64,000 nucleotides of DNA from Rhodocollybia butyracea (lineage: Eukaryota > Basidiomycota > Agaricomycetes > Agaricales > Omphalotaceae). The notes under the pieces are model-generated. The model was given only the letters and a program-made list of their open reading frames with translations. It was not told where the DNA came from and did no database searches. The stretch is taken from positions 123,118 through 187,117 of the forward strand of contig JADNRY010000117.1 of the NCBI GenBank assembly GCA_015501585.1, given 5' to 3'. Below are positions 1-29,552 of the stretch, piece by piece; position 1 is the stretch's first letter; the number at the start of each line of letters is the position of its first letter. Both the position numbers and the translations under genes were made by a program.

Positions 1-1074
1 CTTTGTGAATGTGTTCCAAGTGCTGTTCTGGATTGTTGAGGATGACGTCCAGGTAAACTATGACGCAGACATTGAGCATGTCCAAAAATATGTTGTTAAT
101 GAACCTTTGAAAAGCCGCGGGAGCGTTAGTAAGACCAAAGGGCATAACTAACCATTCATAGGAACCCCATTGGGTTCGAAAAGTAGTCTTCCATTCGTTG
201 CCATCGGCAATTCGGATAAGATGATAGGCATGGGCCAGGTCAAGTTTGGTGTAGATTTTAGCTATTTTCGGAGCATCCAAAAGGTCTGAGATTAGAGGCA
301 GCAGGTAGCGATCCTTCTTGGTAATCTTGTTTAATCCTTGGAAGTCCACACAAAGCCGAAGTTTACCATCCTTGTTTGGTACAAAGAGGACCGGAGCACC
401 ATGCGGAGAGGAAGAGGGTCAAATGACACCAGTAGCGAGTTGCTTATCCAAGAAATCGCAAAGAGCCTGCTGCTCTGTCGGAGAGAGAGGGTAAAGGCGA
501 CCGAATGGGGGCTCAGCACCTTATACCAGATCAATTTTGAGGTCAAAAGAACAATGTTCAGGAAGAACCTCGGACGCGACTTCATTGAAAATGTCGGCAA
601 AGTCAAGGTAGTCTGCAGGGATCGGAAGTGCCTTGGAAGAAGCACTCCTGGCCAAAGGGCCAGATGCTGCATAGTGTGCCGATACTTTGGGGTCAATAAC
701 CCGGAGAAGAGTTGGTTCCCTACCTGAATCTTGACAAGCCCTATGGAAGGCGGCAGCACCGACTAATGTGATATCGACTTCAGGAGTCTCCAAACGCAAA
801 GCCATTTGTGCAACCGAAGGGTAGGAATAGATTGGTTCGAAAGGAAACCTGTCCGATAGAGGACGAGGTTGGCGAGAGCAAGTTTGAGTTGGCGGCAAAG
901 GTGCGGGCCGAATTGGGATAGTAGGTGGTTTTGAGGAGGAAACCGGTGCTTTCGGTCCTAATGCGGATCCGAAAAGCGAAGACGTCTGAGTGGAAACAGG
1001 GTGCTCAGTGTTACAGAAAGTAATGGTTCTGGTGACCCAGTCAATAAACAGATTGTAGCAGGACAAGAAACTGT
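1..1074 (-). pseudogene. Ty3/gypsy pol fragment: protease tail, linker and reverse transcriptase N-half
   Basis: Read on the minus strand, the frame runs from the region after the protease (YNLFIDWVTRTITF, near 1060-1010) through the linker preceding RT (DFADIFNEVASEVLPEH) into reverse transcriptase ([49 protein letters not shown]). This order is typical of Ty3/gypsy pol. Two in-frame stops interrupt it, TAA at 521-523 and TGA at 419-421. The catalytic box, usually YLDD in this family, reads YLDV (codon at 44-46), so one metal-binding Asp is lost. The frame leaves the window at position 1. The gene cannot make an active polymerase; it continues the gag/protease frame to the right across the inserted foldback element. 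Family identification is secure; the exact clade is not. Confidence 0.9.
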
Positions 1075-1745
1075 CACTGCCAGTACATCAGTATATTACC
1101 TTTGAAAAAGGGATAGAAGTATAATATATTTTTCCCCTGAATTTTAACAAATTTTTCCAATGAAAAAGAGTGAATATTGCCCCGGAAATAGGCATGTGAA
1201 AATAAGTACTTTTTCGGCGGCTATTTCACCCGAAATAGGGCGCTAAATATGCCATCAATTTCGTCTGATTTATTAGTAATTTTTCGGCATCAATTTCTTT
1301 CATATTTCTTTAGACAATGGAAATATGTTAACTATTTCGGCTGCAAAAAGAAACGGGGATTGAGCGGCGGGCCGCCCGGGCCGGTCAAAGGGCTCTTTGG
1401 CCCATTCAATGGGCATTCAATGCCCGTTGCTTTTAGCGGCCGAAATAGTTAACATATTACAATTGAAATATATTTTCTATTGCCACTCATATTTCCAAGG
1501 AAATATCAAAGAGATTACAAAGGAAAAATATACCGAAAAATTTCTAATAAATCAGGCGAAATTGATGGCATATTTAGCGCCCTATTTTGGGCGAAATAGC
1601 CGCCGAAAAAGTACTTATTTTCCCATGCCTATCCCCAGGGCAATATTCACTCTTTTTCATTGGAAAAATTTGTTAAAATTCAGGGGAAAAATATGTCATA
1701 CTTCTATCCCTTTTTCAGAGGTACTATACTGAGGTACTGGCAGTG
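1075..1745. mobile_element. CACTG-ended foldback MITE (non-autonomous CACTA/Plavaka type)
   Basis: The ends are CACTGCCAGTAC (1075) and its complement GTACTGGCAGTG (to 1745). Nearly the whole 671 bp folds back: about 280 bp of left arm (for example the AAAGTACTTATTTTC region read in both directions) matches the right arm, leaving a GC-rich loop near 1365-1440. The interruption falls inside the gypsy protease/pol frame; removing it with a 2-3 bp duplication (GT/TGT on the plus strand) rejoins GY to SFLSCYN, the conserved order in gypsy elements. CACTG termini and 2-3 bp duplications fit the CACTA superfamily, which in mushrooms is mainly Plavaka. There is no internal coding region. ORFs read across it are meaningless. 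Confidence 0.8.
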
Positions 1746-2166
1746 TGTATCCTATAACAGCTTTACAAGATGAGTCCAAAGAAGTGACATAAAATGCCAG
1801 AGGTAGCAGCTCGCCGGATGGAAACCAAACTTCCAAATGCAACTTCGGAAATTGGTTTCAGAGAAAGAGAACCATCGAAGAGTCGGAGATTGATCAGCAG
1901 AATCGAAGAGGTTGGAATAGAGTTTAAATTGACATAACGGGAATCAAGGAAACAATCGGTAGAACCGGAGTCTACAAGAGTAATATACTTTAAAAGAGCG
2001 GAAGATTCATCGGAATCTTTGGGAAGAGGGAATTCAGTAGATAAAGAAATTGTAAGTGATCATTCATAATCAGAAAGAGCGGACGCGTTGAGATAGACTT
2101 CCCCAGAGGCACAAACCTGATCAACACAGCTCCTGTTTCATACTGGGGTCCAGGAGCTGCGGACTA
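1746..2166 (-). pseudogene. Ty3/gypsy aspartic protease segment
   Basis: The minus-strand frame contains LVDSGSTDCFLDSRYV (around 1940-1980), the active-site loop of retroelement aspartic proteases with Asp-Ser-Gly in place of Asp-Thr-Gly. It is preceded by a Ser/Thr-rich linker after the zinc knuckle and followed by the sequence broken by the foldback insertion at 1745. A TAG stop at 2164-2166 separates it from the gag frame, although the reading register is otherwise kept. It belongs to the same element as the gag to its right and the pol to its left. Confidence 0.85.
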
Positions 2167-3816
2167 TTTTTCTGAACCGGTATTGGTCGGATTAGTTGCA
2201 GATTCCTCAGTTGAAGTGGCCCAGGCATGAGAATCCCCTGACCTCTTCTTATCGCAGTTCTCCGCTTTATGCTTTCCACCACAAATCATGCACAGGCCTC
2301 CCTTCTTTCGGCGTTCCACTTCGGAAGGCTTGAGTCAACCGTTGGCGCCGAGAAGGTTGGCGCAAGGCTTCGGTGCAGAGCTGACTGAAGATCCAGATTT
2401 GTTGAAACCAGAACCTGAAGGGCCCGATTTGTTGTTGTTGTTCCAAGGTTTTTTCAGTTGCTGTCCGGAGCCTTGGGAGGAATTGTTATTGTTCAGCTTG
2501 TTTGAGCCGGAAGCCTGTGAAGAGTTATTTTGAGAGGAAGAGTTCGAAGAACCCTTTTTCATCGGAGAGGAAGTTTTACCGCCGGAGCCACCTCCGGTAG
2601 TCCTTGCGACCTCTATTTTATGTTCTTCTTTGTGCCGCCAGTGCCGATTGTCGATTTCAAGCACCTTCACGTGATACACGGAAAGTGAAGCCGGCGTCAG
2701 ACCGTGAACCATTTCATCCTTGATCCTAGTGGCCAAGCCACGCTGATAAGCCCATTTAAGAGCAATGTTGTCCCAACCTGTCATTGCCGCCAAGGTATTG
2801 AATCGGGTGTTATACTTCCGAACCTGTTCATTCTCCTTCATCCGAATATTACTGAGCTTATCCTCGGCTTCACCCTGGGCGTTGAAAAGACCAAAATGGT
2901 CTTGAAGTTCCTTCACGAGTGCTGAGAAGGAGTTCATCCATGCCGGGGGGCTTATCGTGTTCGGATCCAGGATGTCTGGTATGAACCATTCCAAAGCGGA
3001 TCCACTAATGAAGGAAAGAGCATACATGACCTTTTTCTGGTCAGTAAAGTATGAAGGGCAGTCAATAAAGACTAAGGAAAGGGAAAGGAGAAACTCCTTG
3101 AGTTTCCAAGGTTTGGAGCCCTCGAAAATGTTGGGCTCCTTGACTTTGGCTTTGGCTTCCGAGGGTTCAGTAGACTTGCCACCGAGGATGGTCAAAGCAT
3201 TTGTGATGGAATCAATAGATCCTCCGAATTTGTCCATCAGTTCCAATACTGCGCCGGCATCAGGCTGGCCGCAAGCATTGAGAAATCTACCACTGCGGCG
3301 GGGACCGCCGGGGGTACCTGGGGAGGAGGCGGAGGAGGACCACCACCACCACCGTTATTGGGGTCCAGGAGGATCAGGGGGAGCATCCCCATCACCACCA
3401 TCAGGGTTGTTAGGAGGGTTGTCGGAAGGATTATCATCCGGATTCTCACCTTCATCTGCAAATTCTCCTTCTCCTGTGTCCTCTGGTTGTTCGACAATCG
3501 GAGGCCAATCGTCACCCATGGTGGTACGAGATTGGTTCGAGAAGAGAGCTCCTTGGAGCTGTTTGGCAAAGGAAGGGGAAGGTGCCGAAGCGATCCTTCC
3601 ACGACGAGGAGTAAGGACTAGTGCAGTACCACTAGCACTGGGAATTTCCTTAATGTCGTATTGGTCGACATTGATGTTACCTAGGACTGCCTCATTAGAG
3701 ACAGAAGTGTTTGGAACAGCTGTTGTGGGTCCAAAGCCACCTGAGCCATGTCGGCGAGTGTTTCCAGCCGCAGAAACAGAATTGTTGTAAGGCACAAATG
3801 ACTGAGCACTGGGCAC
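2164..3816 (-). pseudogene. Ty3/gypsy gag with CCHC-type zinc knuckle
   Basis: Minus-strand capsid/nucleocapsid gene. The N-terminal part is acidic and proline/aspartate-rich (3355-3816). The central part, starting near 3246, carries the capsid-like region (KPWKLKEFLLSLSLVF, ALEWFIPDI, FSALVKELQDHFG, KYNTRFNTLAAMTGW), followed by a low-complexity Gly/Asn/Ser stretch and the knuckle CMICGGKHKAENC near 2280-2250. Spacing is C-x2-C-x3-H-x4-C, one residue shorter than the canonical retroviral form. One register is kept through three in-frame stops: TAA 3355-3357, TGA 2335-2337 and TAG 2164-2166. The start codon is unclear: the frame stays open upstream of 3816 towards about 3885. The gene is dead but only moderately diverged. 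Confidence 0.9.
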
Positions 3817-3869
3817 AAAGGGATTAGGAGTCTCGGTTGGCTGGATCCGAGTCTCAGAGACTGTCCAAT

Positions 3870-4605
3870 GACACGCCGAAATTCAAGCGAAATGTCATCA
3901 TTTAAAAGACCCCGTGAAACACGTCACGTCACTACCTAGGGTATGTTATGTATTAGACACTTTGAAGGTCCACTTCAGGTATCTAGTATGTAGAAACCCA
4001 TTTGAAGGGAGATACACTATGTTTTAAGAGGCTACATTACTGTGCAAGGATGCATCGTTGACCCACAAACTCAAAATCAATCAAATTGATTTACCTAGAT
4101 TGATTTAGGCTTGCCAGATCTAAAGTCTATTCAATTAATACTACCTACTACAAAAAGTCCTATACAGGGATATACAAGACAGGATTAAAATAGATGAAGA
4201 GAGACAAATGAGGGCAAGCATAATGCGAACCCATATCCGTTTAAAGTAAGAGAATTGAAGCACTGGTTCCCTGGAACAAATCACAGAGAGAAACTAGACA
4301 ATTAATGATGAATTAGGCGCCGGGGATCAAAGTGGCCCGGCGCCGGCAGTAAAAGAAAGGCGGGGCGCGTCCTAGCAACATGCCTATAATAAAATTTATT
4401 CGGACCGACCTATGGGACGGTCCACATGTATACAAGTACCCGGTAGGACCCGGGAGGAGAAGAGAAAAGGGGAGATACGGAACGACGCCGCAAACTTGAA
4501 CCGCGGGACGGACGGACCGCCCGGCGCTTAAATCGCATCAAAGTCGAACCACTCATCGGGAATGCATTGTTCTTCCCTCCCCTCCGTTACTTATTAAATA
4601 AAAGG
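3870..4605 (-). other. Probable 3' end of a second minus-strand gypsy element and LTR-like spacer
   Basis: A short minus-strand frame ends EEQCIPDEWFDFDAI then TAA near 4530, followed on that strand by a GC-rich stretch with inverted repeats (GCGCCGGG and CCCGGCGC near 4320-4350). Position and acidic ending resemble the pol C-terminus of a gypsy element lying head-to-tail behind the gag at 3816. The intervening 3870-4500 region is probably untranslated/LTR sequence; I could not find LTR ends or a target duplication. This is inferred from layout. Confidence 0.3.
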
Positions 4606-5160
4606 TGTAGAAAAGGTGTAATATGGGTAGAGGACCCATGACACAAAGATATAGAGCCCTGGGGACAGTGTAGGAACCAGGGGAACACTTATAAGCTCAG
4701 TTATGGCTAACAAGGGCAACATGAGATTTATCTTCTTGGCTCTTGGCAAGCCAAGAGAGTCTTACCAACCCATGGTACCTTAATTAAGAAAATTTCAAGG
4801 ACCTAGGAGTATAAAAAGGCAAGGAAATGAAGAGAAAAGCATTCTTTCTTACCCCCACCAGGTGTAGCAGCTCCTTATCAGGCTACTACTAAAAGATTGA
4901 ATTGATATTTGTTTGACAGCTCAGAGCTTGGGGATCAGTTTAAATAAGTCTGTACTTTGAAAGGGAAGGCACTTAGTGAAATAACACTCAGTGTAGCAAG
5001 GAAGCACTTGAATAGATTGAAGTTTTAAATAAATATTATTTGGCTGAACTAAAAACCTGAACTGAGTAATAAGTTGTGTGTGTGTTTGGTGTGGTTGTGT
5101 AAGCCATTTCTAAGTTCACCCCAGTTTAGACCTCTCACCGAATTCTAGGAGGTTTTCTTG
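4606..5160 (+). other. LTR-like, promoter-bearing segment (possible solo LTR)
   Basis: The segment begins TGTAATATGG near 4617 and contains a TATA-box-like TATAAAAAGG at 4810-4819, followed about 35 bp later by a pyrimidine-rich stretch resembling a retrotransposon start region. It interrupts the minus-strand gypsy tail at about 4600. No matching right end or target duplication was found, so the right boundary is arbitrary. Confidence 0.3.
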
Positions 5161-6076
5161 GAGGCATTTGTTTTTTTTAAAAAACAGTTTTGTCAGATAC
5201 GGCGTTAACGAGTACAAGTTTAAATATACTGTTAAGATTGTGCAAGGCCAAAGGGATCCGATTGGTATCCAAAAGGTATGTATTGACAAAGTAGGTCTCG
5301 GACCGATATTGGAGATCGAAGATGAAGTGGGACGTGCGGTATAGCTATTAGCTAGACCCTCATCACGCCGAATAGTCCCGAGATGAAGTTCAAGAGACAA
5401 AGATAGATTTGGCCGATGTAACAGCCAACGAGTAAGACGGAAGAAGAATAGACTAGGGCAGAACTTAGTCGGACGGAAGGTCTTGTTTATCCAAGTTGAT
5501 ATTTAAACTGAGGTCTACTGTACAAAGTACTCCTACTTAAATACTTGTGGAAAAGACAATAGTCGGAGACAAGTTTGGGAGACCGAAGTATTAATATCAA
5601 TATAAGACAATAGAAATGAATGGATCGGAAAGGGAATATAATCGAAAGATAATAAGAACCAATTAGAAGGTAATCTGAAAGGTCCGATGGCGGTACGACA
5701 TTGGACAAAGATAAGAGATAAGGGATAAGATAATGAAAAGAGATAAGATGACGGGAATGAATGGAATAGAATCAGAATGATGCCGGAATGATTGTAAAGG
5801 TGATCCGATGATGATCCGAGAGAAGCCGATGCGGCATGATTGTAACAGTCCTCTGAAGGCCACATTGAGGCATAACAAGTACTAGATGTTTTGGAACAAA
5901 GCTGTATCATTTCATTTGTCAAGAGAAACACATGACCATCAACAAACATGGCTATATTACTACAACCCTCTAGCATAAATGGTAAAGAATCTGCAGCACT
6001 AAATATTGTGACCAATTCCACTGCCGTTGGTTCTCATCTTATGGCTATAAAGGCTTCACTATTTGCATATGCGTGT
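5161..6076. other. No recognisable gene; repetitive-looking DNA
   Basis: The stretch is rich in GAT/AAGAGATAAG-like short words (for example 5700-5760). The open frames on both strands have no recognisable domain and no conserved start context. I see nothing here that supports a gene. Confidence 0.4.
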
Positions 6077-20936: not shown

Positions 20937-23900
20937 TAGACTCAAGCCAACTTGAGCCAACTTGAGGCCAACTTGAGTATATTTGCTAACTTGAGGCCAA
21001 CCTGAGTATATTTGTCAACTTGAGGTTGACAAGGGCCAACTTGAGTATATTTGTCAACTTGAGGTTGACCTGGGCCAACTTGAGGCTAACCTGGGTCAAC
21101 TTGAGTAGATTTGGTAGCCTGAGATCAACCAGGGTCAACCTCAGTAGATTTGTCAACTTGAGGTTAACTTGAGATTAACTGAAGTCAACTTGAGCTTAAC
21201 CTGGTATAAGGCATGTACTGAGTTCAACTGTAGAGTAGTAATGCCCAAAGTTGCTATTTAAGTTGAACTTGAATGAGGTTTAGGTTTAAAAAAGATCAAT
21301 TGTGTAGACAGAGGTCATTAGGTATCTAGACAAATTCTATACAACTGGGGGTAGTGTGGGATGGGACCAGGGTAGGAAAGTGCAAAGACAGGAAGTGAAT
21401 AAAGGAACATAGAGAGGCTCCCTAGAGACTGTGAATGTGCCCTACATTTAAAATGAGAGAAAACCAAGGGAGAGATGGCAAAAACATCAAAAATCACCTA
21501 AGTGAGACTGACCAGGGGGAGATGGCCCAGATGGAAAGTGACCAGGAACTGAGTGGAGGAGCATAGAGAGGGTCCTAAGCGAATGTGAATGGGCCCTACC
21601 TCGGAAAAATTGAATGAAAATTGAAGGAGTTATGGCAAAAACATTGAAAATCACCTATATGACGAGAGAGTGATGGAAAAAATTGGGAATTGCTCTAGCG
21701 TGAGTAAGGCGATAGTGAGGGGGTACCTAGGGGATCTAAACGAGCCCTGGACGAAAGAAACTGAATAAGAACTGATGGAAATATGGCAAAAACAGCGAAA
21801 ATCACCTAAGTGAGACTGACCAGGGGGAGATGACCAAGATGGAAAGTGACCAAGAACTGAGTAGAGGAGCATGGAGAGGGTCCTAAGCGAATGTGAATGG
21901 GCCCTACCTCGGAAAAATTGAGTGAAAATTGAAGAAGTTATGGCAAAAACATTGAAAATCACCTATATGACGAGAGAGTGATGGAAAAAGTTGATAATTG
22001 CTCTAGCGTGAGTAAAGGCGATAGTGAGGGGGTACCTAGGGGATCTAAACGAGCTCTGGACAAAAGAAATCGAATGGAAACTGATGGAATTATGGCAAAA
22101 ACAGCGAAAATCACTTAAGTGAGAATGAACTGAGGAGTGCTGAACAACATGGGGAACTGATCATATGAGATCAAAGCAGCATAGAGAATGTCTTTAGGCA
22201 ATGTGAGTGAGCCCTACTTTGAAGAAATTGCATGAAAACTGCAGGAGATATAATAAGAAGACAAAAAAAATGCCTAAGTCTGATGGTCATGTGTTAACTT
22301 ATGACAAATCATTCAACTCGCATGTTCTCACTCCTCCACCATCATCTCTGGGATTCCCTGCTGTGTTGCCAACAAATCCATCCACCATTAGTCTTTCTTT
22401 ATTACCCATTTGTTTTGTTTATTTTCTCACTGTAACTGTCTTTCTCGAGAGGCCGAGCTTGGACATGGTTAAGATAGCACAGTTACAGGCAGCTGCCACC
22501 TTTCTTGAGGTTCTTTGGAACTGGTCATGATAGAGCGTTGCATTTTTACTCCTTCTTACTGTTCCTCTCTGCCTCTTTAATCTTGTCTCAGCAACTCCCC
22601 ATACTGTCTGTCCCACTTAGGTGAGTTTTGGTGTTCTTGTCATATCTCCTTCAGTTTTCACTCAATTTCTTCGATGTAGAGCTCGTTTAGATCCCCTAGG
22701 GACCCTCTCCCCACCGCTTCAATATTGTTTGAATAGCTCCCCATCGTGGTTACTGTCCCCAGGTCAGTCTCACTTAGGTGATTTTTCGCTGTTTTTGCCA
22801 TAATTCCATCAGTTCTTATTCAATTTCTTTCGTCCAGGGCTCGTTTAGATCCCCTAGGTACCCCCTCACTATCGCCCCACTCACGCCAGAGAAATTCCCA
22901 ACTTTTTCCATCACTCTCTCGTCATATAGGTGATTTTCAATGTTTTTTGCCATAACTCCTTCAATTTTCACTCAATTTTTCCGAGGTAGGGCCCGTTCAC
23001 ATTCGCTTAGGACCCTCTCCATGCTCCTCTACTCACTTCTTGGTCACCTTCCATCTTGGTCATCTCCCCCTGGTCAGTCTCACTTAGGTGATTTTCGCTG
23101 TTTTTTGCCATAATTCCATCAGTTCTTATTCAATTTCTTTCATCCAGGGCTCGTTTAGATCCCCTAGGTACCCCCTCACTATCGCCTTACTCACGTTAGA
23201 GCAATTCCCAACTTTTTCCATCACTCTCTTGTCATATAGGTGATTTTTCAATGTTTTTTGCCATAACTCCTTCAATTTTCACTCAATTTTTCCGAGGTAG
23301 GGCCCGTTCACATTCGCTTAGGACCCTCTCCATGCTCCTCTACTCACTTCTTGATCACCTTTCATCTTGGTCATCTCCCCCTGGTCAGTCTCACTTAGGT
23401 GATTTTCGCTGTTTTTGCCATATTTCCCTCAGTTCTCATTCAACTTCTTTCGTCCAGGGCTTGTTTAGATCCCCTAGGTACCCCCTCACTGTCGCTGTAC
23501 TCACGCTAGAGCAATTCACAACCTTTTCCATCACTCTCTTGTCATATAGGTGATTTTCAATGTTTTTGCCATAACTCCTTCAATTTTCACTCAATTTTGC
23601 CGAGGTAGGGCCCATTCACATTCGCTTAGGACCCTCTCCATGCTCCTCCAATCACTTCTTGGTCACTTTCCATCTTGGTCATCTCACCCTGGTCAGTCTC
23701 ATTTAGGTGGTTTTTCCTGTTTTTGCCATATTCCCCTCAGTTTTCATTCCATTTCTTTGTTATAGGGTTCGTTTAGATTCCCTAGGTACCCCCTTACTAT
23801 TGCTGTACTCACGCTAAACTTTGCCATTATCTTATGTTATTATCATTTATTTTGTACTTTGTTTGTATACAAATTACATCATTTGAACACTTAGTTGTTG

Positions 23901-26451: not shown

Positions 26452-26521
26452 TCGTGTTGGTATCAATTTTTTCGTTGGCTTCGGAGCAGTCAAATATCTC
26501 TGCAAAAGAAATAATTACATT

Positions 26522-26611
26522 GGTCCAATGGTGTAGTGGTTAGCACGCATGGCGGTAGTGGACGGCGGAAGGCTGTCCCGTGAGGCCCAGGTTCGAGTCC
26601 TGGTTGGACCA
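26522..26611 (+). other. tRNA-like sequence with Pol III terminator (copy B)
   Basis: The perfect acceptor stem GGTCCAA/TTGGACC, D-arm GTGTAGTGGTTAGCAC and T-arm CCAGGTTCGAGTCCTGG are followed at once by an 11-T run (about 26,616), a good Pol III terminator. Between D and T arms there are about 17 extra bases including a hairpin GACGGC-GGAAG-GCTGTC, which could be an intron, but splicing it out does not give a standard anticodon loop (no T33). The body resembles fungal glutamine tRNA. It shares its 3' half with the copy at 19,359. I therefore call it tRNA-like, not a specific tRNA. Confidence 0.55.
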
Positions 26612-26861
26612 TTCCTTTTTTTTTTTCAAATTACTTTCAACATAGATCTTTTTTGGGTTTCTCAAGGGATTCTGTTATGACCCGGATCTAAATCCTATAC
26701 ACCCAATCTTTTTTCTTCTGTAACCAACTATGAACACTATCATTAATACTTCTACTTAACATTTTACATTCATTAGTTATTCAACACCATTTGGGTTAAT
26801 GCTGCACACATTCTTCCAGAACACCAGAATGATCTTTAACAGTCACTGCACAGTCTGCACA

Positions 26862-27140
26862 GTCATGACATCATTCTAGCTCCACAACTATGATGTCATC
26901 TTGCTACTCCACAATCATGATGTCATTCCATTGCTCCGCAGTTATGATATCACATCACTGCTCCACAGCTATGACATCATTGCATAGCCTCTTTACATCA
27001 ATGACTCAATATCAGTCATTGCACAGCCAGATATCTGAGTCAACTACGGTTCCGCATACATGACTCAATATTAGTCATTGCACCGCATTACATAGTCAGA
27101 CTGACTCATCCACAGTATTTCCGCAGTTATGACTCAAATC
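26862..27140 (+). promoter_or_regulatory. Array of bZIP-type sites in LTR U3
   Basis: ATGACATCAT or ATGATGTCAT occurs near 26,864, 26,890, 26,917 and 26,971 (CREB/ATF-like), in units containing CCACA or CCGCA. Further on, TGACTCA or its complement TGAGTCA (Gcn4/AP-1 consensus) occurs near 27,002, 27,036, 27,061, 27,102 and 27,130, three of them paired with a downstream AGTCAT half-site. The TATA box lies 40-50 bp further. This looks like a stress/amino-acid-response type enhancer, by analogy with known bZIP sites; binding is inferred. Confidence 0.55.
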
Positions 27141-27293
27141 TAGTCATTCCGCAGCATTTCCTAACTAGTACACATTGCACAGTATATAAGTAGTCTAGAT
27201 TTACCAATGTACGTTAGACGTATTATTTTTCTTAAATCCAAACCCCCACTTGTTTGCTGTTATCACTTGTGTGAATCACCAGACCAACTCATT

Positions 27294-27655
27294 GTATCTT
27301 GTTGAGCTATCTCCAAGCTACAATACACATTTATACATCTTGTTGAGCTAACTCCAAGTTGTATCCACTAATATTCACCTGTTGAGCTATCTCCTAGTGA
27401 ATACTTCTTTAATTGCCACTTGTTGAGCTATCTCCGAGTTGCAACTTCCTATTACTTGTTGAGCTATCTCCGAGTATTAGACATCACACTCACTATTACT
27501 TGTTGAGCTATCTCCGAGTATTAGACACCATACTCACTACTACTTGTCGAGCCATCTCCGAGTATTAGTTCTGATTCATATTACTGCTTGTCGAGCCATC
27601 TCCGAGGGTAATCTTATTATTATTTGTCGAGCTATCTCCAAATAATAACTTCTGT
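27294..27655 (+). repeat. Nine-unit hairpin array with constant 14-nt loop and variable stems
   Basis: The core GTTGAGCTATCTCC (variants GTTGAGCTAACTCC, GTCGAGCCATCTCC, GTCGAGCTATCTCC) recurs nine times, near 27,300, 27,341, 27,380, 27,421, 27,458, 27,501, 27,546, 27,590 and 27,627. Each copy is flanked by sequences that pair with each other but differ from unit to unit: ATTGTATCTT/AAGCTACAAT, ATACATCTT/AAGTTGTAT, ATTCAC/GTGAAT, CTATTACTT/GAGTATTAG, TTATTATTT/AAATAATAA. Stems are 6-10 bp, most with one central mismatch and a G-T pair next to the loop. The sequence changes keep pairing, as expected of selected RNA or DNA hairpins. Confidence 0.85.
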
Positions 27656-28094
27656 GAGTTTCGTATTACAAACTAGTTACTAACTTTACTTGAACCTAGT
27701 TGTTTGAGTATATATTTTTTGCCTAGCGGTTTCAACGAACGGAAAGGCTTGCTCTATAATCTCATTAATTTCTCTTATCATTTTTACTGCCGAGTTACGT
27801 ACTGTGAAGGTTTGGACGAGACTATTGATCGAGTCATAACAGATTCTCAAGGGCTTCGCGGTCAAGGTTGCATTTTTTCAAGGACAACAGGCAAGTGTAT
27901 TGGAGTTGTAATACAATGTTAGAGAGAATGCTATTTCTCACCCTTGAGTGCTCATTTGTTTCAACCCATGACAGCACTTAGCTCACAGAGCTTGTTTAAA
28001 GCTTGACGATAAAGACATAAATGAACAGCTTCAATCTTTCTCGGGCCCCTCTGTTGTTTCAGAGGCGCAAAAAGTAATTCAACTGGTATCGAAT

Positions 28095-29552
28095 GTGATG
28101 GATGAAGACATCAAAATTGTTGAGGCTCAGATGGAGAAACTTGATGCTCAAATCGAGGTTCTGTTTTCTGACCGATGTAACCTTGGCCATGAAATGGAGA
28201 TACCGCGAAAGCAGAGAGAAAAAATCAAATATTTGCCATCTCCCTTTTGGATGGTGCCGGACGAAATATTAGCAATAATTATGGAGTACGCATGCGCAGA
28301 AAATTATCTGAAGAGCCACTGCTACACCTCTCTCCCTGACATTGCAATAGGTTCCGTTTGTCATCGTTGGTACAAAATTGTAAAAGGATTACCGAAACTC
28401 TGGTCCAACTTAACAGTAGAGACAACCATTTCTAGGCCGGAAAACTGGGGAGCGCCTGAATGTTCAGTGGCTAGCTTTTCAGATAGGATCATCAGGTTTC
28501 TGGAGAAATCTCATCAGGTTCCGTTAAACATAACATTGCTTGCAAAGGGTACACAGCCCCTTCACTGGCATGGCCCTCTTACCTTTCCTGGCCTAACTAT
28601 GCTCACAAACGAAAGTCATTGTTGGAAGATGTTCAGATACACTGGAGATAATTCAATCTCTGGTTATAATATACTCTCTGGCCTTGAATTTCCCCTTCTT
28701 GTTGAGCTGGATATCGGTGGTGGAAAAGGTGCCAGTGCCGCCGATCTTTGTCGGTTTGAAACTTCCCCAAAACTTCGTACAGTTCGGGGTTTTGTTGAAC
28801 CAACGTCTCTACTGCCAATCCCCACCATCATCTGCCAAAAGATTACAAAATTTTGTGTCAACGGACACTTAGAGTCCCTGGAAACATTGAAGAAAGTTCT
28901 GGATTGCTGCATTTCTCTGACTTTTCTCGAGATCAGTTTCATAGAAGACTCTATCAGACTTGAGAAAGCCAGCAAATACCCCAACATCACTTCACTTGCT
29001 ACAAGAGATATAGTCTCACTAGAGGCTTTATTTCTCTCCTTCAATTTTCCTTCTCTGGCCAAGCTCGTGGTTGATGGTGGCAAGGAGTGGTCAACCGAGG
29101 CATTTGAATCCTTCGTGTCGAGATCAGAATGCATGATCACTGCATTTGTTATCAAAAGGATATCTCTAACTGATGATAACCTTCCACGAACCCTCCATCT
29201 CGTGCCATCTCTAACTTCCCTCAAAATTGAGGACGCCGCCACAATTTACCGCAATCATCAGAGACAAAGTCCAGTCACTTTAAGGCTGATGTCAGCGCTC
29301 ACTGTTTGGGATGATATCTCCCTTGTTCCGAAACTACACAGTCTCTACCTGTCTTCTGATAGCTGTTGCAGCCACTCTGAACTCGTTTCAATGGTTCAAT
29401 CACACTGGTTTCCACTGGGTTCAGAGCGGTCTGCAGCAATGTCAAGGGGACAAGGCTGCATATGGTCTGTTATTCTCAAGTTTCCGCTCGGCACAGTCGA
29501 TCGCGAAGTTTATGAGCCGTTAGAGAATTTGGATAGACGTGAAGGTTTGTGA
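28095..29552 (+). CDS. F-box protein with LRR-like C-terminal region
   Basis: 485 residues, uninterrupted. The N-terminus is a predicted coiled coil (IKIVEAQMEKLDAQIEVLFS), followed by the F-box (LPSPFWMVPDEILAIIMEYA then IGSVCHRWYKIVKGLPKLWS, residues about 50-110) and a long C-terminal half with leucine-rich spacing (LVELDIGG, LTFLEISF, LAKLVVDGG, LTSLKIED, LHSLYLSS). This is the common Agaricomycete F-box layout; the F-box would bind Skp1 in an SCF ubiquitin ligase, with the repeat region choosing the target. The frame is open upstream of the chosen ATG to about 27,990 (LDDKDINEQLQSFSGPSVVS), so the true start may be in an earlier exon beyond an acceptor near 27,975. Among the most intact genes of the window. 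Confidence 0.85.
   Translation: MMDEDIKIVEAQMEKLDAQIEVLFSDRCNLGHEMEIPRKQREKIKYLPSPFWMVPDEILAIIMEYACAENYLKSHCYTSLPDIAIGSVCHRWYKIVKGLPKLWSNLTVETTISRPENWGAPECSVASFSDRIIRFLEKSHQVPLNITLLAKGTQPLHWHGPLTFPGLTMLTNESHCWKMFRYTGDNSISGYNILSGLEFPLLVELDIGGGKGASAADLCRFETSPKLRTVRGFVEPTSLLPIPTIICQKITKFCVNGHLESLETLKKVLDCCISLTFLEISFIEDSIRLEKASKYPNITSLATRDIVSLEALFLSFNFPSLAKLVVDGGKEWSTEAFESFVSRSECMITAFVIKRISLTDDNLPRTLHLVPSLTSLKIEDAATIYRNHQRQSPVTLRLMSALTVWDDISLVPKLHSLYLSSDSCCSHSELVSMVQSHWFPLGSERSAAMSRGQGCIWSVILKFPLGTVDREVYEPLENLDRREGL

Follow-up and report, generated by a model that had tools for sequence, protein, structure and literature searches.

The LTR and its surroundings

The window analysed here is a stretch of 64,000 nucleotides of the Rhodocollybia butyracea genome (contig JADNRY010000117.1, positions 123,118 to 187,117, forward strand). 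It contains a long terminal repeat of 1169 bp (TGTTATGACC...GTCATAACA) on the + strand at positions 26673-27841, of which both ends and the target-site duplication were read. GATTC is found to the left at 26668-26672 and to the right at 27842-27846 (no strand being assigned to either) and, because it flanks the repeat on both sides, the element is a solo LTR. The TATATAA motif at 27183-27189 (+ strand) is presumably the TATA box. The U3 region (26673-27183) displays 27-bp tandem repeats together with palindromic TGACTCA/AGTCAT and ATGATGTCAT motifs, which we take to resemble AP-1/Gcn4- and CRE-type sites.

An apparently intron-bearing tRNA gene lies about 60 bp upstream of the LTR (26521-26612), with an Rfam tRNA score of 51.5 bits and an isotype that ARAGORN could not name. 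It is the sole match of an Rfam scan of the 64-kb window, in which the array described below matches no family above the gathering score. Integration next to tRNA genes was considered as a form of targeting, and among 39 scanned loci, some of them overlapping, a tRNA gene was present only at the window copy (L031); since the 38 other loci are without one, no targeting is claimed. On the other side, an open frame of 526 aa (27972-29552) begins 131 bp past the LTR and resembles F-box proteins, with best matches in Rhodocollybia butyracea and then in Collybiopsis luxurians, and with no Pfam match at 0.001. The LTR could drive this F-box-like frame.

Nine hairpins in the LTR

The core pattern GTYGAGCYAWCTCC has nine exact matches, starting at 27301, 27342, 27381, 27422, 27458, 27502, 27546, 27590 and 27626 (span 27301-27639), and one match with two mismatches elsewhere; 2.19 matches are expected at up to two mismatches and none of 100 shuffles reached ten. 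Among the nine units the core reads GTTGAGCTATCTCC in five, GTCGAGCCATCTCC in two, and GTTGAGCTAACTCC and GTCGAGCTATCTCC in one each. When the + strand of 27286-27660 is folded alone, the minimum free energy (MFE) structure consists of nine consecutive hairpins (-85.9 kcal/mol, z -4.03, 0/100 shuffles as good) that together span 27291-27648, which bears out the first-pass annotation of nine hairpins in a solo LTR. Hairpins 1 (27291-27324), 2 (27333-27364), 4 (27413-27444), 5 (27449-27480), 7 (27536-27569) and 9 (27617-27648, a perfect TTATTATTT/AAATAATAA stem), all on the + strand as are the other three, were recovered both in this fold and in that of the whole leader of a full-length copy (L076). 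Hairpin 3 (27372-27403) has no inner stem, and C-A and U-U mismatches flank its core. Units 5-7 are 44-bp tandem duplicates, hairpin 6 (27493-27524) being the duplicate of hairpin 5, and hairpin 8 (27580-27612) belongs to the array fold. Eight of the nine hairpins are present in the whole-leader MFE of L076, unit 8 being rearranged, with a core-closing probability of 0.34 for both units 6 and 8. A mismatch, a bulge or a G-U pair is present in most stems.

The same annotation had described a constant 14-nt loop. The core is indeed nearly constant, but it is identical in only five of the nine units and is partly paired rather than open: the G and C at its outer ends form a base pair, and further in a tetraloop is closed by a short helix that UU or UC interrupts as a bulge or internal loop, RNAalifold giving a 2-bp helix with an internal loop inside the core. 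The comparison of fold energy with shuffled sequence is similarly mixed, for no shuffle of the array folds as well but a U3 control also folds better than its shuffles (z -3.33), which weakens such z-scores as proof of array structure. On the - strand, the array has a z of -1.78 with 4/100 shuffles as good, and the leaders of the relatives L083 (z -0.25) and L088 (z -1.38) are unremarkable in fold energy.

Compensation in the stems

An arm-swap test was performed in which the 3' arms were exchanged among units around one common core. On the + strand, own arms average -9.0 kcal/mol and foreign arms -5.2, with 3 of 200,000 permutations as good, and with 53 of 200,000 as good when the arms are taken alone without the core. 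Once the tandem duplicates are collapsed to seven distinct units, none of the other arrangements among the 5040 possible pairs as well as the real one. The - strand comparison also passes (-7.8 own, -4.3 foreign); as complementary arms are expected to pass on both strands, the test cannot distinguish between them.

Fifteen units of the window family, chosen by eye as distinct, were then aligned (A3: all nine of the window, five of the ten in one LTR of L061 and one of the twelve in L062). Of the cells of this alignment, 85.6% are paired against 75.1% after shuffling. Its covariation score of 0.312 compares with 0.131 in shuffles, and slid partners reach 0.110 at most. Pairs changed on both sides do not stand out (6 against 3.8 shuffled, 36/500 as high), further pair types show no excess (12 against 12.2), and G-U pairs are not in excess over A-C (9 against 8) in the window family. 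The first two of these belong to a set of five covariation measures, and both fail to exceed shuffles in A3 and likewise in A2, an alignment of diverged relatives presented below. The hairpin stems are self-compensating in the array, as had been proposed from the window alone: the real arrangement is the best of 5040, and A3 and, more tellingly, the diverged A2 covary. Two observations that would have spoken against it went the other way, as the stems of relatives change with compensation and the units pair better than direct repeats would.

A DNA-level element could be imagined instead, whereby the repeats would serve as a downstream promoter or as transcription-factor sites in the LTR, in keeping with a short repeated motif near the TATA box and with the repeated TGACTCA-like sites of U3. 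A DNA site, however, needs no complementary flanks differing from unit to unit, and we regard this reading as highly improbable.

Presumed leader position and self-priming

In the full-length copy L076, the primer binding site (PBS) is separated from the LTR by a single base and is complementary to a self-primer segment of the LTR; its reverse complement matches 13 nt of the copy's own LTR, and 0/300 shuffled PBS match as long. The window counterpart, AGACGTATTATT at 27216-27227 (+ strand, a 12-nt PBS complement), has its first base 33 bp past that of TATATAA and is the presumed RNA 5' end, and from this spacing we infer an RNA start at about 27216. After its 5' LTR, L076 reads TAATAATACGTCTC..., the gag ATG beginning 31 bases past the LTR end. 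No PBS of the tRNA type, with TGG, follows the LTR in the copies read, namely L076 (which has TAATAATACGTCTCTACCCGCCCC), L081 and L082. Self-primer/PBS complements occur in three families with three different sequences of 13, 12 and 16 nt; in the 12-nt family, complements as long were met in 1/300 shuffles for each of L081, L084 and L085 and in 0/300 for L086, and in the 16-nt family in 0/300. A second apparent PBS class (TCATAACATAAGATAATACG, 12 of 63 pattern matches) was set aside, as the one example examined, L080, has no cores at up to three mismatches and reads as unrelated.

In the self-priming of Tf1 and Tj1, the PBS of an element matches the beginning of its own transcript in complement (PMC4600332). 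The window family has a defining trait of a self-primed LTR retrotransposon of this Tf1/sushi type, a PBS complementary to the RNA 5' end, with that end placed by TATA spacing, and the primer complement of L076 just after the TATA box points to Tf1-like self-priming. It further resembles these fission yeast elements in that a relative carries a retroelement reverse transcriptase (RVT_1) and differs in its hairpin array, no such array being mentioned in the passages of PMC4600332 consulted.

The self-primer lying just past the TATA box, the array is placed inside a predicted AUG-free leader, which measures 657 nt in L076, and within the predicted primer:PBS helix, which has a probability of 1.00 in the MFE of that leader and encloses the array. 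The LTR part of the presumed leader (27216-27841, + strand) is free of ATG, the sole ATG after 27150 being at 27207, just upstream of the presumed start. Over the 624 nt of 27218-27841 there are 0 ATG, for a mean of 9.2 in shuffles and 0/2000 as low, while the upstream U3 has 14 for 10.6 expected. The array sits between the presumed transcription start and the gag AUG, as a packaging signal of the retroviral type does, with the start placed as above.

A comparison of U3 was made over ten copies, leaving out L065, L066 and L071, which have no recognisable LTR start and whose figures include flank. U3 is 99% identical to that of the window in L062, L063, L064 and L072 and has diverged in L061, L067 and L069 (68-72%). 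In these last three, the 35 bp from TATA to start are 79-89% identical, and from start to array 68/68, 67/67 and 67/67 positions agree, with zero mismatches throughout and one gap in each of L067 and L069. Identity is 97-99.5% in the array, where the alignments have 48, 3 and 0 gap columns respectively, and 97-98% in the rest. This conservation boundary near the presumed start supports a constraint on the leader and falls short of proof, because such a boundary might also result from subfamilies recombining with each other. The placement of the array in the RNA leader downstream of the TATA box, as annotated at first, is thus favoured by the self-primer/PBS complement, by the absence of ATG and by the boundary in three copies.

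These observations also bear on the possibility that the array has no RNA function and stems from tandem duplications of a palindromic DNA repeat, its complementarity being kept by template switching in replication or reverse transcription. Such an origin would agree with the tandem duplicates of units 5-7, with core numbers ranging from 6 to 12, with the palindromic repeats also present in the U3 of the window LTR and with the ability of template switching to create and repair hairpins (PMC8794818). However, the stems retain mismatches and G-U pairs and the tip is conserved, in three copies conservation is far higher in the leader than in U3, and the loss of ATG marks a translated leader. The absence of RNA function is therefore judged very unlikely; template switching may have helped to make the stems, leaving the tips and the ATG loss unexplained.

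Since no ATG is found where 9.2 are expected, scanning ribosomes probably cross the leader. Together with the length of the leader and the repetition of the motif, this would suit a translation or host-factor element, whose hairpins would be the target of an RNA-binding protein of the host or would influence the scanning, export or stability of the leader. Scanning is usually impeded by stable hairpins, though, and the motif varies between element lineages; such a role appears quite unlikely. Outside LTRs, the analysis covered one isolated core match (C1:280607, L001).

The window family and its gag-only copies

The genome searched comprises 95.6 Mb in 1381 contigs, and all relatives of the element were drawn from this one genome. 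Exact matches to the core pattern number 2909 in it, against 3 for a reversed control, which corresponds to about 320 LTR-sized arrays if nine cores per LTR are assumed; in the copies read, the number of cores per array ranges from 6 to 12. With the last 682 bp of the LTR, the best 40 of 373 candidate places are 99-100% identical, and the window family has therefore been recently active.

Six two-LTR copies (L061, L072-L076) hold gag, with no other + strand open reading frame of at least 150 aa between the LTRs and no tblastn match at 1e-3 to a 300-aa reverse transcriptase piece of L115, a diverged relative described below. These six copies thus have the make-up of a gag-only non-autonomous LTR element, with an LTR pair, gag and no pol found in between, the target-site duplication being read for the window LTR only. 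Both LTRs of five of them (L072-L076) align to the window LTR over the full length at 98.9-99.7%, and those of L061 do so at 79%. The Gag of L076 is 1138 aa long, with matches to Retrotrans_gag at 832-923 and zf-CCHC at 1075-1091. L075, whose LTRs are 99% identical to that of the window, encodes a 749-aa Gag variant (3498-5744, - strand) that aligns to the reference Gag (P0001) at 1-686 (53%) and 999-1135 (52%) and not across the stretch of the capsid match. This protein has no Pfam match at 0.05, and its CCHC residues are visible only in the alignment. L073 also carries a Gag-like 749-aa frame, both being two-LTR elements with an LTR-to-LTR spacing of about 4.67 kb; the protein alignment just described is that of L075. 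Nine relatives of the Gag were found, seven from Dendrothele bispora and one from Lentinula raphanica.

At C532:92127-96242, an LTR 99% identical to that of the window, with its PBS, precedes a Gag only 66-73% identical to P0001, a mismatch hinting at LTR exchange between subfamilies. A pattern of two cores was also looked for in IMG/VR and gave 23 stretches, of which three (L099, L103, L109) had at least four cores at up to two mismatches. L099 and L103 show the same 15-nt repeat, whereas in L109 a 23-nt repeat accounts for three cores and a further match stands alone; none of them is array-like.

Diverged relatives with other stems

The Gag search also gave further families at about 46% and 40% identity, plus weaker ones. 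In the 46% family, eight same-strand LTR pairs lie 11.4-13.9 kb apart, and in L115, the one whose interior was sampled, the second open piece contains RVT_1 and RNase H domains. We infer that the 46% lineage is autonomous, an assignment made for the lineage and not for the copy L115 because the reverse transcriptase of the latter is split over two frames. In this family, the leader of L081 has its own 12-nt self-primer, with 1/300 shuffles as long, and its own hairpin array. The stems of the lineage include ATTACTG/CAGTAAT, CTATATTG/CAATATAG, ACTATTG/CAATAGT and ATTATTG/CAATAAT around AGYNNNTTC-like tips.

Seven leaders of the 46% lineage gave 26 detected hairpins, whose 24 distinct strings make up alignment A2. 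The detection rule required TGA, a G-C closing pair and at least six pairs with G-U allowed, so that TGA in A2 is there partly by construction. In A2, 97.4% of cells are paired against 82.9% shuffled, 28 cells are changed on both sides for 8.0 in shuffles, and covariation scores 0.338, compared with 0.118 after shuffling and no more than 0.077 when partners are slid; pairs changed on both sides (4 against 3.7) and further pair types (10 against 10.0) show no excess over shuffles. A looser set of 40 places, chosen by motif only, has 174 of 240 outer pairs formed for 137.1 expected (sd 6.3), with 0/100,000 permutations as good, and its 21 distinct arm pairs have 89 of 126 for 71.6, with 5/100,000. 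The asymmetry of G-U over A-C pairs was dismissed as proof of strand, as the 7 against 0 of A2 is equalled in 164/2000 shuffles and the detection rule favours G-U.

When the seven leaders are aligned with no hairpin rule, CCA is invariant on the 3' side of three hairpins and TGA on the 5' side of two. The MAFFT whole-leader alignment (A1) splits the last hairpin between two blocks of columns, and covariation was scored on hairpin-level alignments. The motif TACTGAGNNNTTCCAGTA has 72 genomic occurrences against 0 for its control. At 10 of these places the sequence is TGAGCTATTCCA, which resembles TGAGCTATCTCCA of the window; the tips of the window family and of the 46% lineage are likely of common descent. 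With regard to ATG in the leaders of the 46% lineage, L084 has one inside its LTR part, L081, L083, L085 and L086 have theirs past the LTR end, and L087 has none; in L088 the LTR end was not located.

The 40% family, represented by L082, has the longest self-primer (16 nt, 0/300 shuffles), and its leader contains no core at up to three mismatches and no TGA hairpin of at least six pairs. From primer to gag ATG, it measures 358 nt against 657 in the window family. In L082 (C802) and related contigs, some LTR pairs are about 5.7 kb apart and others 11.5-15.8 kb, suggesting that this family may have short and long members.

The shorter leader of the array-less L082 is what would be expected if the hairpins were a compaction scaffold, merely shortening the path of about 620 nt between 5' end and PBS for self-priming, with the tip sequence irrelevant; the position of the array inside the loop closed by the primer:PBS helix is in line with this as well. 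Spacing, however, explains neither the near-identical tips of nine units nor the invariant CCA (three hairpins) and TGA (two) of the seven-leader alignment, and we hold compaction as the purpose to be unlikely.

A candidate role for the array

Taken together, the array is very probably a selected domain of the RNA leader. As read from sequence, compensating hairpins, nine in the window and 6-12 in other copies, present a near-constant tip between the presumed self-primer and the PBS in a predicted AUG-free leader, and a pol-bearing lineage related to the family retains such hairpins with different stems. A repeated tip on maintained stems has the look of a multivalent protein-binding RNA. As the leader lies between the RNA start and the gag AUG and Gag has a zinc knuckle, Gag would be the obvious ligand. 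The candidate role that follows, a multivalent docking array for Gag or its nucleocapsid part in packaging, is given about an even chance. In its favour were counted the zf-CCHC match of the L076 Gag and the alignment, at the knuckle region, of the variant lacking the capsid match; this knuckle argument is weak, because the N-terminal half of Gag is also conserved and the 749-aa protein has no Pfam match. Against docking was counted L082, which self-primes without an array.

The elements would be self-priming LTR elements of the Ty3/Gypsy type, with the array as a domain of their genomic RNA leader. Base pairing of the first 11-13 nt of the RNA to the PBS would make the leader a single closed domain, in which the apical motif (GAGCUAUCUCC in the window family, GAGY-N-UUCC-like in relatives) would be repeated because it is a binding site, most likely for the element's own Gag through its zinc-knuckle region. 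The array would then act as a multivalent signal for packaging and possibly for dimerisation. The primer:PBS helix would present it as one domain and sequester the 5' end, which fits a choice of packaging over translation. By this means, RNA of the gag-only window family would be taken up into particles, a pol-bearing relative providing the polymerase. In its widest form the proposal, which we offer tentatively and at somewhat less than even chances, is that of a modular domain in which a hairpin with a Gag-binding tip has been multiplied in tandem, its copy number evolving and its stems drifting under a pairing constraint. Such a docking platform, in a leader circularised by self-primer and PBS, might enable elements that have only gag, or even lack the capsid part, to move along with a relative that bears pol.

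Comparison with known systems

Like HIV TAR, the present hairpins have a stem with a bulge, keep their tip conserved and lie in the presumed leader of the RNA. They differ from it in their many copies, the first of which begins about 75 nt from the presumed RNA 5' end, and in that no second + strand open reading frame of at least 150 aa was found between the LTRs of the window family. With the TR-GAG elements of plants, the family shares two LTRs and gag with no reverse transcriptase found between the LTRs, whereas it is fungal, has a self-priming PBS and includes one variant that is also without capsid matches. HIV-1 Psi consists of a few different stem-loops, while the window family has up to twelve copies of one hairpin type in varying number. 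The likeness to Psi is one of position between RNA start and gag AUG and of a folded leader: the HIV-1 packaging signal lies in the leader, which when folded binds many copies of NC (PMC7395439). A structured, self-primed retroelement leader is therefore of a known kind, and what is new and unusual here would be a leader built from a multiplied hairpin. Among open-licence papers, no LTR leader with a covarying hairpin array was found, which is weak evidence of novelty.

To our knowledge, little has been established about the packaging signals that LTR retrotransposons use in organisms other than budding yeast. The present case is of interest in this respect: in a fungal family with recent activity, a single hairpin type with a conserved tip occurs in up to twelve copies, and pol-bearing relatives in the same genome have other stems, so that nature has in effect run the covariation experiment and a system for testing is at hand. 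The questions that it opens are whether the tip sequence determines the match between Gag and RNA in packaging and how gag-only elements borrow a polymerase. Independently of the array, self-primer/PBS complements are documented in three LTR families of one agaric fungus.

Other repeats and retroelement remains in the window

Two observations were made away from the LTR. On the - strand of 521-3354, open frames are present that by eye resemble Gag and a further piece of a different retroelement, and a 310-bp tandem repeat of 3.4 copies with 92% matches occupies 22757-23816.
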